From positions 1 to 64,000 of the forward strand of contig CAJWPZ010000004.1 in assembly GCA_913045325.1 (NCBI GenBank): 64,000 bases of DNA, read 5' to 3'. The notes under the pieces are model-generated. The model was given only the letters and a program-made list of their open reading frames with translations, ran no database searches and was not told the origin of the DNA. This DNA comes from an uncultured Flavobacteriaceae bacterium. GTDB lineage: Bacteria; Bacteroidota; Bacteroidia; Flavobacteriales; Flavobacteriaceae. A program made the translations under genes and the position numbers. Shown here one piece after another: positions 42,989 to 47,193 of this stretch; the stretch's first letter is position 1; each line of letters starts with the position of its first letter.

Positions 42989-44002
42989 ATGGCAGATAAA
43001 GAGAAAGAGGCAAAATTAAAAGCACTAAAACTTACCCTGGATAAATTAGACAAAACATATGGTAAGGGAACCGTAATGAAAATGGGAGACCAAGCCATTG
43101 TTGATGTAGAGATAATACCCTCAGGATCATTGGGTCTTGATGTGGCCCTTGGCGTGGGTGGATATCCAAGAGGAAGGGTGATTGAGATCTATGGCCCAGA
43201 ATCTTCGGGAAAAACAACACTAACAATTCATGCAATAGCAGAGGCACAAAAAAAGGGTGGTATTGCAGCTTTTATTGATGCAGAACACGCCTTTGACAGA
43301 TACTATGCAGAGAGCCTTGGTGTAGATGTTGAAAATTTAATTATCTCTCAACCAGATAATGGAGAACAAGCCCTAGAAATTGCAGACAACCTAATACGTT
43401 CTGGAGCAATTGATATCATTGTTATTGATTCTGTGGCTGCCTTAACTCCAAAAAGTGAAATTGAAGGAGAAATGGGTGATAGTAAAATGGGATTACACGC
43501 CCGTTTAATGTCACAAGCATTAAGAAAACTAACTGGATCAATTTCTAAAACCAATTGTACGGTAATATTTATCAATCAATTGCGTGAAAAAATTGGTGTT
43601 ATGTTTGGAAACCCAGAAACTACAACAGGTGGTAACGCCTTAAAGTTTTACGCATCTGTGCGTCTAGACATAAGACGATCTACTCAAATTAAAGACACTA
43701 ACGGTAATGTTTTAGGAAATAAAACCAGGGTAAAGGTTGTAAAAAACAAAGTAGCTCCTCCCTTTAAGTTAGTTGAGTTTGACATCATGTACGGAAAAGG
43801 AATCTCTAAAGTTGGAGAAATCATTGATCTTGGTGTAGATTTTGAAATCATTAAAAAAGCAGGGTCTTGGTTTAGTTATGACGAAACCAAACTAGGTCAA
43901 GGTAGAGACGCGGTTAAAACATTACTACTAGACAACCCAGAACTTATGGAAGAACTAGAAATTAAAATAAAAGATTGTATCAAGGCCCTAGCGGGTGCAT
44001 AA
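42989..44002 (+). CDS. recA: Recombinase RecA
   Basis: DNA-strand exchange protein for recombination and the damage response. Walker [10 protein letters not shown] is at residues 69-77; Walker B region [12 protein letters not shown]; loop L2 contains [19 protein letters not shown] (19 residues). 337 aa, normal. The acidic tail of enterobacterial RecA is absent. It stands alone with its own promoter, long leader and strong terminator. Confidence 0.98.
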
Positions 44003-44342
44003 CTAATTCCTTAAGCACATCAAGAAATACTGTTGCTGTCTTGATTGGAGTGGTAAAAATGTTTTAAAACAGGGTTTGGTTTTGTATAAAACCAAACCCT
44101 GTTTTAATTTTAGTACCTTTTGCAGGTGTTTAACGTTTCCATTTTAGATAAGAACTTTTTTAAATTATGTTAAAAAGTTAATATTAAAATCTTTTTTAGG
44201 ACGTTATAGTGGCGCTACTGTTTTACAAATAAAAAAAGACGCTACGCAACCCTCTTCACAATCAAGCATCTAGTTGGTGTAGAAGCCAATAATTTATAGC
44301 TTATTGTGTAAAACAATTGCGAACAAACCAAGGCAACTACAT
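44003..44342. other. Intergenic region between recA and the sigma-factor gene
   Basis: 340 bases without a supported protein gene. It holds the recA terminator (44064-44107). The remaining 235 bases are AT-rich; I find no consensus promoter, tRNA or open frame I trust. A near-palindrome AGTGGCGCTACT (within 44208-44219) is the only notable symmetry. The leader of the sigma gene must lie here. Confidence 0.6.
44064..44107 (+). terminator. Strong terminator of recA
   Basis: A perfect 20-bp stem (core AAAACAGGGTTTGG with its complement) closed by a 4-nt loop GTAT at 44084-44087, followed by an AT-rich tract with TTTT. One of the longest hairpins in the window; it should stop transcription in either direction. 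Confidence 0.85.
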
Positions 44343-44876
44343 TTGACTTTAAACCAAATCATACAAGGCTGTAAAAAGAAGGACGCTAAGGCACAAGCAG
44401 AGCTCTACAAGCGCTACAGTGGAGTGTTGTACTCTATTTGTTTGCGATACTCTCCCAACAAGGTAGAGGCAGAAGACAACTTGCAGGATGCTTTTATTAC
44501 TATTTTTAATAAAGCAGAACAGTTTAAAGAAAAAGGCTCTTTTGAGGGTTGGATAAAAAGAATAACTGTAAATACTGTGCTTCAAAAATATAGAAAACAA
44601 AAAGTGTTTACTATAACTGATGAAGCGCAAATTGAGGATACCGCCGACCAACAGGTTGTTGATAATGGCTTGCCACTTGATTATTTACTCAGTATTATTC
44701 AAGAGCTGCCCCAGAGATACAGACTGGTGTTTACCATGTATGTTATGGATGGGTATTCTCATAAAGAAATTGGAGCCTTATTAGAAATTAGTGATGGAAC
44801 CTCAAAGTCTAATTTAGCTAGAGCAAGAGGGATTTTAAAAACAAAAATTGACGACTATAACAAAGATAGTCTCTAG
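44343..44876 (+). CDS. ECF-type RNA polymerase sigma factor
   Basis: Sigma-70 family, ECF layout. Region 2 (about residues 15-85, with LYSICLRY, EDNLQDAFITIF and GSFEGWIKRITVN) and region 4 (about 115-172, LPQRYRLVFTMYVMDGYSHKEIG). No ATG fits: I chose TTG at 44343, giving MTLNQIIQG as in family members; another TTG at 44304 would add 13 residues. 177 aa. The next gene, 34 nt downstream, is probably its membrane anti-sigma factor. Confidence 0.92.
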   Translation: MTLNQIIQGCKKKDAKAQAELYKRYSGVLYSICLRYSPNKVEAEDNLQDAFITIFNKAEQFKEKGSFEGWIKRITVNTVLQKYRKQKVFTITDEAQIEDTADQQVVDNGLPLDYLLSIIQELPQRYRLVFTMYVMDGYSHKEIGALLEISDGTSKSNLARARGILKTKIDDYNKDSL

Positions 44877-44910
44877 TACATAAAACCTTGCTGATAAAAA
44901 CAGCAGACCT

Positions 44911-46329
44911 ATGAAACAAAAAAAGAACATAGATCAACTCTTTAACGAGCGACTGGCAAATCACAAGCAGGCTCCCGGCTCTCATGTTTGGGATAATATT
45001 CAGGCGCGTCTAGAAAAAGACAAGAAAGATCGTGTTATTGCTATATGGTATAGAGTGGCAGGGGTTGCAGCAAGTTTGGTTTTGATTTTCTATTTAGCAG
45101 GTTCTTTAGGTGATACGCAAAGCAATAGTATTGTTGAGCAGCAACTAGATGTGAAAAGCGACAGCAACACAGTTCCAAAAATTAATAAAACACTTGAAAT
45201 ACGTTTGCCTGAATACAAATCTGGCATTACCTCCACAAATAAAGACGCGCAAAACAAGACAATTACACCACAGGTAAAAGAGAAAGACAATAACACTCCA
45301 AAAAAACAAATTATTGGCTTGACAAACCAAGAAAGCGCAGTAGCTAAAGGGACTATTAAAAAAGACCTCGTTGTGCCAACAAAAAATTTGACCCTAGCGG
45401 TTGTAAAACCAAAAAATCCACCTGTTGTTAAAGAAAATAAAGAAACAGTAACCAGCCCGGTGGTTGCCAATCCTAGCAGCGTCTCAGCAATAGCCGAGAT
45501 AGAAAAGACCAACACGGCATCGGCAGAGAAAAAATCTATTTTTGATGCCATAAAAGAGCAAAAGCAACTGGAGTCTAAAGAGGCTGTAGCCAAAAAAAGC
45601 GCCCAAGAAAATCTTTGGGAAATTACACCCAACATCGCTCCCGTATATTTCAATACCTTAAGTCAAGGATCATCAATAGATGCTAGCTTTGCAGACAACA
45701 CCCAAAAGGGTGATGTAAATATAAGTTATGGTATTGGTGTGCGCTACGCGCTGAGTGATCGATTAAAAATTCGCTCTGGAATAAACAATGTGTCTCTTAG
45801 TTATAGTACATCAGATATAGAACTAGGTGATGGCCCGGTCTCGGCAGCATTAAGAAATATTGATTACAATAGAGAAGGTATTGTGGTAATCGCGCAAGAT
45901 TTAGGCACATTTGCTAGTCAAAATCAAGACGGAACCTTTGGTGAAATAACTCCAAAATCAACAAACGGAGAAGCGTTTATAAATCAAAATATTAGCTATT
46001 ACGAAGTGCCTTTAGAATTAAGCTACACGCTTTTTGACAGCGCTTTTGGCCTAGATGTCATTGGAGGGGTTAGCACACTTGTTTTAGGAGAAAACCAAGT
46101 ATCTGTTACCGCAGGGAATTACAGTGAGGTTCTTGGGGCTGCAAACAACTTATCTAGCATCAGCTTTGCCTCTAACATAGGGCTTGGATTACATTATAAA
46201 ATGTCTAGTAACCTTAGACTTAATGTTGAGCCTATGTTTAAATACCAGTTAAATCCATATACAGATTCTTCTGTGAGTTTTAAGCCATACTACCTTGGTG
46301 TATACACCGGGTTAAGTTTTAAGTTTTAG
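44911..46329 (+). CDS. Anti-sigma factor spanning both membranes (TM plus OM barrel)
   Basis: 472 residues in three parts. A cytosolic N terminus of about 45 residues (HVWDNIQARLEKDKKD), a single membrane helix at 46-64, a Lys/Pro/Thr/Gln-rich disordered linker (about 70-230), and a C-terminal beta-domain (234-472) like an outer-membrane barrel that ends in an aromatic residue (GLSFKF). This matches the dual-membrane anti-sigma (Dma) class described in Bacteroides. Position right behind an ECF sigma gene supports it. The ligand or stress sensed in the outer membrane is unknown. Alternative: a periplasmic beta-domain that does not enter the outer membrane. Confidence 0.8.
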   Translation: MKQKKNIDQLFNERLANHKQAPGSHVWDNIQARLEKDKKDRVIAIWYRVAGVAASLVLIFYLAGSLGDTQSNSIVEQQLDVKSDSNTVPKINKTLEIRLPEYKSGITSTNKDAQNKTITPQVKEKDNNTPKKQIIGLTNQESAVAKGTIKKDLVVPTKNLTLAVVKPKNPPVVKENKETVTSPVVANPSSVSAIAEIEKTNTASAEKKSIFDAIKEQKQLESKEAVAKKSAQENLWEITPNIAPVYFNTLSQGSSIDASFADNTQKGDVNISYGIGVRYALSDRLKIRSGINNVSLSYSTSDIELGDGPVSAALRNIDYNREGIVVIAQDLGTFASQNQDGTFGEITPKSTNGEAFINQNISYYEVPLELSYTLFDSAFGLDVIGGVSTLVLGENQVSVTAGNYSEVLGAANNLSSISFASNIGLGLHYKMSSNLRLNVEPMFKYQLNPYTDSSVSFKPYYLGVYTGLSFKF

Positions 46330-46409: not shown

Positions 46410-46441
46410 AAAAATCATCTCATCGCCATGGGGTGATTTTT
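46410..46441. terminator. Bidirectional terminator hairpin
   Basis: Arms AAAAATCATC and GGTGATTTTT form a 10-bp stem with one G-T pair and a 12-nt loop, between convergent genes. It touches the stop codon of the minus-strand gene and has T runs in both directions. Confidence 0.6.
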
Positions 46442-47193
46442 TATTTCATAAACTCTTTTACCTCAGCAAGAGCAATACTCAAAATAACAGGGGCAGCGCT
46501 ATAACTTGCAATTTCGTGTTGATTGTAATGAAGTACCAGGCTGTCTTGACTAAAACCCAGGCTATTGGGCATGGTAAAAGTATTGCCATCAAACCAAAAG
46601 TAATTGGCATTAATGCTGCTTTGCTCCGGAATATTAAACGCTTTTCTAAATTTTGTTTCGGCAAATGCGCTTAGGGCATCATAGCGCTTAAAAAGGGTTT
46701 GATTTGTGAGCTTCTCCCCTGTTTTTATGTCAAAATTGATATACATAAGGTCTTGATAGCCGTGTGCGCCCCCAGTGTATTTGTATTGCTTAAATTCTAA
46801 GGACAACAGCAACTCGTCTCTGAAAGTCTCCGTTACCAGAGCCTCAACAAAATACTCGGCTGCCAAGTCTGGGAACTCTGCATGGTCACGCCAATAAGAA
46901 TCCACAAATCCTTTTGCGGCTGCCTCTATGGTTAATGCCGTTGGCTCTTTTGATGGATCCTCCAGATACAGCGATGCGGCAATAAAAGAATTTATAGCCG
47001 TATTTAATTCTATTTCGCGATTGTTCTGGGGGGCATACAAGAGATAGTCAATAGCAATATTTGGGCAATCTCTAGAGGCGCAACTAGGTAAATCCCCTTG
47101 AGAGAAAGAGCGTGGCTGTGGCTGAAATAACTCTGTGGTACAACCACAAAAAACCACCACCAAAAAGAACAAACACCAAAATCTTAAGTTCAT
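46441..47193 (-). CDS. DUF3298/RsiV-like lipoprotein
   Basis: Lipoprotein signal with Cys18 (VVFCGC), a DUF4163-type first part, and a C-terminal DUF3298 domain containing the characteristic YTGGAHGYQDLMYINFD region. RsiV and PdaC-related proteins share these domains, but here the chain carries no kinase or sigma-binding part. Function unknown; the fold binds lysozyme or glycans in some relatives. 250 aa. A TAATTTTG box sits 4 nt before the start. Confidence 0.88.
   Translation of the reverse strand: MNLRFWCLFFLVVVFCGCTTELFQPQPRSFSQGDLPSCASRDCPNIAIDYLLYAPQNNREIELNTAINSFIAASLYLEDPSKEPTALTIEAAAKGFVDSYWRDHAEFPDLAAEYFVEALVTETFRDELLLSLEFKQYKYTGGAHGYQDLMYINFDIKTGEKLTNQTLFKRYDALSAFAETKFRKAFNIPEQSSINANYFWFDGNTFTMPNSLGFSQDSLVLHYNQHEIASYSAAPVILSIALAEVKEFMK

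Follow-up and report, generated by a model that had tools for sequence, protein, structure and literature searches.

An ECF sigma factor gene and the gene that follows it, located beside recA in the 64 000 nt stretch of flavobacterial DNA analysed here (the window), likely form a flavobacterial switch of the Dma/Reo type, i.e. an autoregulated sensor of the outer-membrane state that drives a lipoprotein programme. The architecture of the pair, its homology and synteny, the promoter motif, the co-occurrence of motif and pair, and the lipoprotein enrichment were all computed here. In the proposed mechanism, residues 1–43 of the anti-sigma factor would hold the ECF sigma factor at the inner membrane, the periplasm would be bridged by a long flexible tether, and an 8-stranded C-terminal barrel would sit in the outer membrane, anchoring the other end. 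If the outer membrane, or the barrel within it, changed its state, the sigma factor would be freed and would then transcribe from ACGCAAC-N16-YATCT promoters; its targets would be its own operon and mainly lipoprotein genes, whose products carry acidic residues after the lipid-bearing cysteine.

The gene pair and the predicted architecture of the anti-sigma factor

The features of the locus are given below in window coordinates, with the evidence in brackets.

42989–44002, recA
44066–44105, no strand, inverted repeat (aaaacagggtttggtttt / aaaaccaaaccctgtttt) 3' of recA, probable recA terminator (read directly in the sequence)
44244–44272, + strand, predicted autoregulated ECF promoter, ACGCAACC-N15-CATCTA, 70 nt 5' of the sigma start codon
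44343–44876, + strand, ECF sigma factor, 177 aa, TTG start (Pfam, ortholog starts, alignment)
44911–46329, + strand, predicted Dma/Reo-type anti-sigma factor, 472 aa, ending in GLSFKF (Pfam, AF2, homology)
44911–45039, + strand, residues 1–43, cytosolic segment and predicted sigma-binding domain (conservation; putative function)
45040–45108, + strand, residues 44–66, predicted single membrane helix (AF2 helix 24–65, hydrophobic composition)
45109–45528, + strand, residues 67–206, predicted disordered periplasmic tether of 140 residues (pLDDT under 50)
45529–45582, + strand, residues 207–224, predicted short pre-barrel helix, often KKSIFDAI-like (AF2 helix 210–224, orthologs)
45616–46326, + strand, residues 236–472, predicted 8-stranded outer-membrane barrel with C-terminal Phe (AF2, structural matches, hhalign)

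The earlier note had recognized an ECF sigma factor gene followed by a second gene, and the boundaries it gave to both hold, as judged from the TTG start at 44343, the Pfam matches of the sigma ORF (Sigma70_r2, 1e-16; Sigma70_r4_2, 7e-16) and the orthologous loci examined, in 58/58 of which the sigma gene lies directly upstream of the anti-sigma gene; this arrangement is more than chance. The sigma stop codon is separated from the anti-sigma gene by 34 nt, while the inverted repeat behind recA probably splits recA from the sigma operon. The frame is also open to a more distant TTG at 44304, yet orthologs favour 44343. Among the 58 sigma orthologs, 55 start with TTG, three with GTG and none with ATG, which suggests that weak translation of the sigma factor has been selected for. 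A PdaC/DUF3298 lipoprotein gene (window 46441–47193) converges on the anti-sigma gene and is present at this position in the closest relatives only.

The structure of the anti-sigma factor was predicted with AF2 from a single chain together with 38 orthologs. A short cytosolic N-terminus and one membrane helix, both proposed earlier, are borne out by an AF2 helix at residues 24–65 and by the sole hydrophobic stretch of the protein (44–66), which falls inside it. In the N-terminal segment (pLDDT 52–69), P22 and W27 are invariant and D8, L10, F11, V26 and I30 near-invariant among orthologs. The linker that follows had been expected to be disordered and about 160 residues long; the disorder is recovered by the prediction, whereas the length is nearer 140 residues, with a range of 105–277 across orthologs. 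Eight main strands are then predicted between residues 236 and 471, with block pLDDT values mostly of 82–98 and a dip to 72–74 in loop 2. Foldseek matches realigned with VIA-align place residues 232–472 along solved 8-stranded barrels, including NspA (Z 18.0, 3.2 Å over 154 residues), OmpA (Z 16.2–17.8) and OmpW (Z 16.9), closure of the barrel being judged from these full-length structural matches rather than from coordinates. In the Pfam scan of the anti-sigma factor, OMP_b-brl alone exceeded its cut-off (29.2 vs 28.7 bits) and no FecR or RseA domain was detected, and a PDB sequence search with the anti-sigma profile returned nothing meaningful. The C-terminal domain is confidently predicted to be an 8-stranded outer-membrane barrel, in agreement with the suggestion of a barrel-like domain ending in Phe; the prediction did not yield a soluble non-barrel fold.

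The protein could alternatively be an ordinary inner-membrane anti-sigma factor, the barrel-like domain of which stays in the periplasm. Such a reading is compatible with a location that is predicted and with a Pfam score barely above the cut-off, but it is opposed by the high-confidence 8-stranded barrel, with Z scores of up to 18, and by the terminal Phe, which is invariant among the 38 orthologs, and we regard it as very unlikely.

Conservation along the anti-sigma factor, expressed as mean top-residue frequency, is highest in the strands (0.85 in strand 7, LRLNVEPMFKYQL), intermediate in the cytosolic segment (0.62) and the membrane helix (0.63), and lowest in the tether (0.26). The predicted extracellular loops 1, 3 and 4, whose sidedness was deduced from a periplasmic N-terminus, reach 0.64, 0.61 and 0.56, which is nearly strand level, compared with only 0.38 in loop 2.

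Distribution in Flavobacteriaceae and kinship with Bacteroidales anti-sigma factors

Searching with the single protein recovered relatives from 125 of the 149 Flavobacteriaceae genomes; most of those listed as lacking one are small. At the loci that were read, recA normally precedes the sigma gene, and the sigma/anti-sigma pair is near-core in Flavobacteriaceae and fixed beside recA. In many genera, a gene encoding a lipoprotein of 135–145 residues lies between recA and the sigma gene, and it is absent in the clade of the window. This operon lipoprotein (~140 aa) has no Pfam match; its hhalign probability against NigD is 25 %, and its best structural match is the NigD-like 3k0y, with a VIA Z of only 6.2. 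No second barrel anti-sigma factor was found in the window's own genome (an assembly that is ~90 % complete). The next-best match to the sigma factor in that genome is a second ECF sigma factor (C14:22306–22821, locus L245), which is followed by a 201-aa anti-sigma without a barrel and then by a third gene overlapping the anti-sigma end.

The Dma/Das class is described as specific to Bacteroidota (PMC13088901). According to the same paper, Bacteroidales Dma1–3 have the domain order found here, loss of dma1 or dma2 frees Das1 or Das2, Dma1 acts through a NigD-like protein, and a glycan-sensing role has been proposed for Dma2. Reo, the anti-sigma of EcfO, spans the envelope from the cytoplasm to the cell surface, and either its loss or envelope toxins free EcfO, leading to the induction of NigD surface lipoproteins (PMC9308784, PMC13114119); Bacteroidales relatives respond to a BamA inhibitor as well as to envelope toxins (PMC9308784). 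The expectation that a flavobacterial member would widen the class does not stand, because the class is known and its described confinement to Bacteroidota (PMC13088901) already includes flavobacteria.

As a test of kinship, the sigma profile was run against four Bacteroidales genomes with NigD. Eight sigma relatives score E < 1e-38, and each is followed by a barrel anti-sigma gene, the product of which has 350–440 residues, a membrane helix and a C-terminus resembling a barrel; in three of the four genomes, the top relative is divergently adjacent to nigD. Comparison of the flavobacterial and Bacteroidales anti-sigma sets by hhalign gave 98.8 % and E 1.3e-16 across the barrel; by this measure, the flavobacterial barrel and those of Bacteroidales anti-sigmas with the same architecture are homologous. 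A tree of the sigma factors grouped the flavobacterial and Bacteroidales proteins consistently against other ECFs, with weak support (0.69–0.80). On the question of ECF21, the barrel-paired sigma factors are the closest relatives in the four Bacteroidales genomes, with tree support of 0.7–0.8. Taken with the predicted barrel, the homology of the barrels supports the reading of the second protein as a Dma that had been made from its architecture; such a protein would be located in both membranes, bind the sigma factor and sense the outer membrane directly.

Another reading takes the operon as the only link between the two products, the barrel protein being some outer-membrane protein with no relation to the sigma factor; it draws on the fact that sigma binding is a prediction. 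It has to contend with the barrel protein encoded behind the sigma gene at every one of the 58 loci, whose N-terminus and membrane helix are conserved, and with relatives that have been shown genetically to be anti-sigma factors (PMC9308784, PMC13088901), and it appears extremely improbable.

The Reo/EcfO pair of Bacteroides fragilis and Phocaeicola vulgatus shares with the flavobacterial pair the position of the anti-sigma gene downstream of the ECF sigma gene and the succession of cytosolic segment, membrane helix, long periplasmic part and C-terminal barrel, homology being traced via the NigD-linked Bacteroidales relatives. The regulon of EcfO consists of lipoproteins (NigD) and its own sigma gene, and the one predicted here of lipoproteins and the sigma operon. 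On the other hand, the flavobacterial genome has no NigD_C match, its regulon lipoproteins are different ones, the flavobacterial pair lies beside recA, and the motif ACGCAAC-N16-YATCT was not found by eye upstream of the sigma genes at the Bacteroidales loci checked. At two Bacteroidales loci (L221, L222), TACTGCA occurs in two divergent copies in the stretch that separates nigD from the barrel-paired sigma gene, and may be a promoter element common to this group. Dma1/Das1 and Dma2/Das2 of Bacteroides thetaiotaomicron resemble the flavobacterial pair in domain order and in the pairing with an ECF sigma factor, but the flavobacterial promoter and regulon differ, and vesicle and glycan-locus phenotypes are a feature of Dma/Das. 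RseA/sigma-E and FecR-type signalling likewise connect the envelope to a sigma factor through an inner-membrane anti-sigma, whereas here the Pfam scan shows neither an RseA nor a FecR domain, the anti-sigma itself carries the outer-membrane part, and, unlike in FecR-type systems, the operon lacks a TonB-dependent receptor.

Promoter motif and predicted regulon

The motif ACGCAAC-N16-YATCT occurs with equal spacing upstream of 51 orthologous operons (before the sigma gene or the preceding lipoprotein gene), its fixed letters having been partly required by the search pattern. The flanks that were not required are also biased, with C at the eighth position in 48/51 and A or T after YATCT in 49/51 operons; a handful of operons have no exact motif. 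There is one exact copy in the window (44244–44272) and there are two in its own genome. In 27 genomes with the pair, the motif was found 105 times, compared with three times for the reversed control, these counts being inflated by shared ancestry within the family. It was absent from 18 of 19 mostly small genomes that lack the pair by the single-protein search, with three reversed matches in those 18. The exception (G127) has five copies, one of which lies 1.9 kb before a diverged anti-sigma relative found by profile search. Across the order, a slightly stricter pattern was present in 16/20 genomes within the family and in 2/128 outside it. No probability is given for the co-occurrence because of the shared ancestry and the small size of the pair-less genomes; nevertheless, it is firmer ground for linking the motif to the sigma factor than similarity by itself would be.

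A search for the regulon, as suggested earlier, led from this motif to a predicted target set composed mainly of lipoproteins. The 105 sites were sorted into target classes by reading their contexts.

Sigma gene directly: 15
Operon lipoprotein before the sigma gene: 8
Between recA and trhO, facing trhO: 8
Micro-lipoprotein: 16, plus 2 of a cysteine-less variant
Other lipoproteins: 31
Small membrane protein: 3
DegT-type aminotransferase: 2
Inside rmlC, before rmlD: 12
Other, mostly coding: 8

Approximately half of the motif sites precede lipoprotein genes, the regulon being defined by consensus matches; ~20/105 seem to be matches to coding sequence, 12 of these to a single conserved rmlC peptide. 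In a stricter automatic test, a lipoprotein ATG was present 8–60 nt behind the motif at 30 of 92 distinct sites, compared with 0.39 % of random positions, and the distances from motif to ATG are mostly 13–33 nt. Among 33 lipoproteins encoded behind the motif, 28 carry two or more acidic residues at positions +2 to +7, compared with 4/10 in a small comparison set; at the level of sequence, such acidic residues after the lipid-bearing cysteine resemble the signal for surface export in lipoproteins of Bacteroidota.

The copies within rmlC (12 genomes) were rejected as members of the regulon; they fall on a conserved peptide, NATLxxDWHL, and a match to coding sequence is the simplest explanation. 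Their position at the end of rmlC, 65 nt before rmlD, is one where an rmlD promoter could be; such loci are L118 (own genome, one mismatch), L139, L150, L161, L165 and L168. Genera that have the operon lipoprotein carry another copy of the motif, oriented divergently, between recA and trhO, ~190–209 nt before the trhO start (L124, L125, L145, L146, L163, L196 and L202), and in one genome (G125) the motif is found inside a repeated element (ACGCAACCGTGTTTCCTCTTGGGCATCTT) with eight identical copies.

The other exact site of the window's own genome (C28:4534–4562, − strand, L209) lies 21 nt before MNTFLIILASLVATTFFLLHFSCNDTTEPSKKDKE, a micro-lipoprotein of 35 residues. Its gene is located near ung and is conserved across genera; the product has no Pfam family, and relatives lie behind the motif in 16 of 27 genomes. 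The pN/pS ratio over 11 sequences is 0.17, with synonymous sites near saturation. This purifying selection on codons points to a real gene, and the 35-residue product is very probably a genuine lipoprotein. A one-mismatch motif at C5:68482 lies 24 nt before the gene of a 125-residue membrane protein (L113), which by eye is similar to products behind three exact sites in other genera. Beyond the sigma operon, the predicted regulon of this genome comprises the micro-lipoprotein and probably this membrane protein.

Proposed outer-membrane sensing and the predicted lipoprotein programme

An 8-stranded barrel offers no open channel through which the tether could run, so that transmission must rely on conformation, the assembly state, a partner or proteolysis. 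From the architecture and kinship of the pair, we infer sigma binding, the dual-membrane topology, the signal and the release step, for which two versions may be considered.

In the first, the barrel would be a substrate of the assembly machinery, and failure of its insertion, or its loss, would lead to cleavage of the tether or anchor and to release of the sigma factor in a ligand-free manner. The C-terminal Phe, as found in assembly signals, the response of the Bacteroidales relatives to a BamA inhibitor and envelope toxins (PMC9308784), and the long unconserved tether, as expected of a passive leash or protease substrate, are in favour of this version. However, loops 1, 3 and 4 are conserved beyond the need of a mere reporter and the protease is hypothetical, leaving it plausible, if somewhat short of an even chance.

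In the second version, the conserved loops would bind a specific surface partner, such as a part of LPS, a glycan or a regulon lipoprotein, and the tether would relay binding, or its loss, to the sigma factor. The conservation of loops 1, 3 and 4 fits this version, as do the glycan sensing proposed for Dma2 (PMC13088901) and the predicted surface lipoproteins of the regulon, which could feed back. The ligand is nevertheless hypothetical and a flexible tether of 140 residues is a poor transmitter of force or conformation; such direct sensing is conceivable, albeit doubtful.

Depletion of TamL in Flavobacterium johnsoniae raises 31/47 outer-membrane lipoproteins, including 13/16 surface ones (PMC12045153), whereas depletion of BAM subunits in the same species lowers Sus surface lipoproteins (PMC12611786). 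The TamL result fits the predicted regulon, while the BAM result indicates that a rise in surface lipoproteins does not follow from every outer-membrane defect.

The present analysis adds near-core conservation in Flavobacteriaceae, linkage to recA, a promoter motif, a predicted lipoprotein regulon and a micro-lipoprotein. No description of the conservation, promoter, regulon or micro-lipoprotein was found in the searched literature, outside which the founding Dma1 and EcfO papers lie, and an earlier mention is possible. For the Dma/Reo proteins, the question is what is sensed and how one molecule signals across two membranes. The flavobacterial pair offers a clean test case, as it is near-core, is present in one copy in a small genome, and combines a predicted regulon of few genes with a promoter motif that is conserved and provides a ready reporter and a target list.

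More tentatively, the pair may be the main outer-membrane stress response of Flavobacteriaceae, with loops that read a specific partner and a dedicated surface-lipoprotein programme that includes the micro-lipoprotein. If true, such a programme could explain the rise in lipoproteins upon TamL depletion in F. johnsoniae, making the pair a candidate cause of this otherwise unexplained response.
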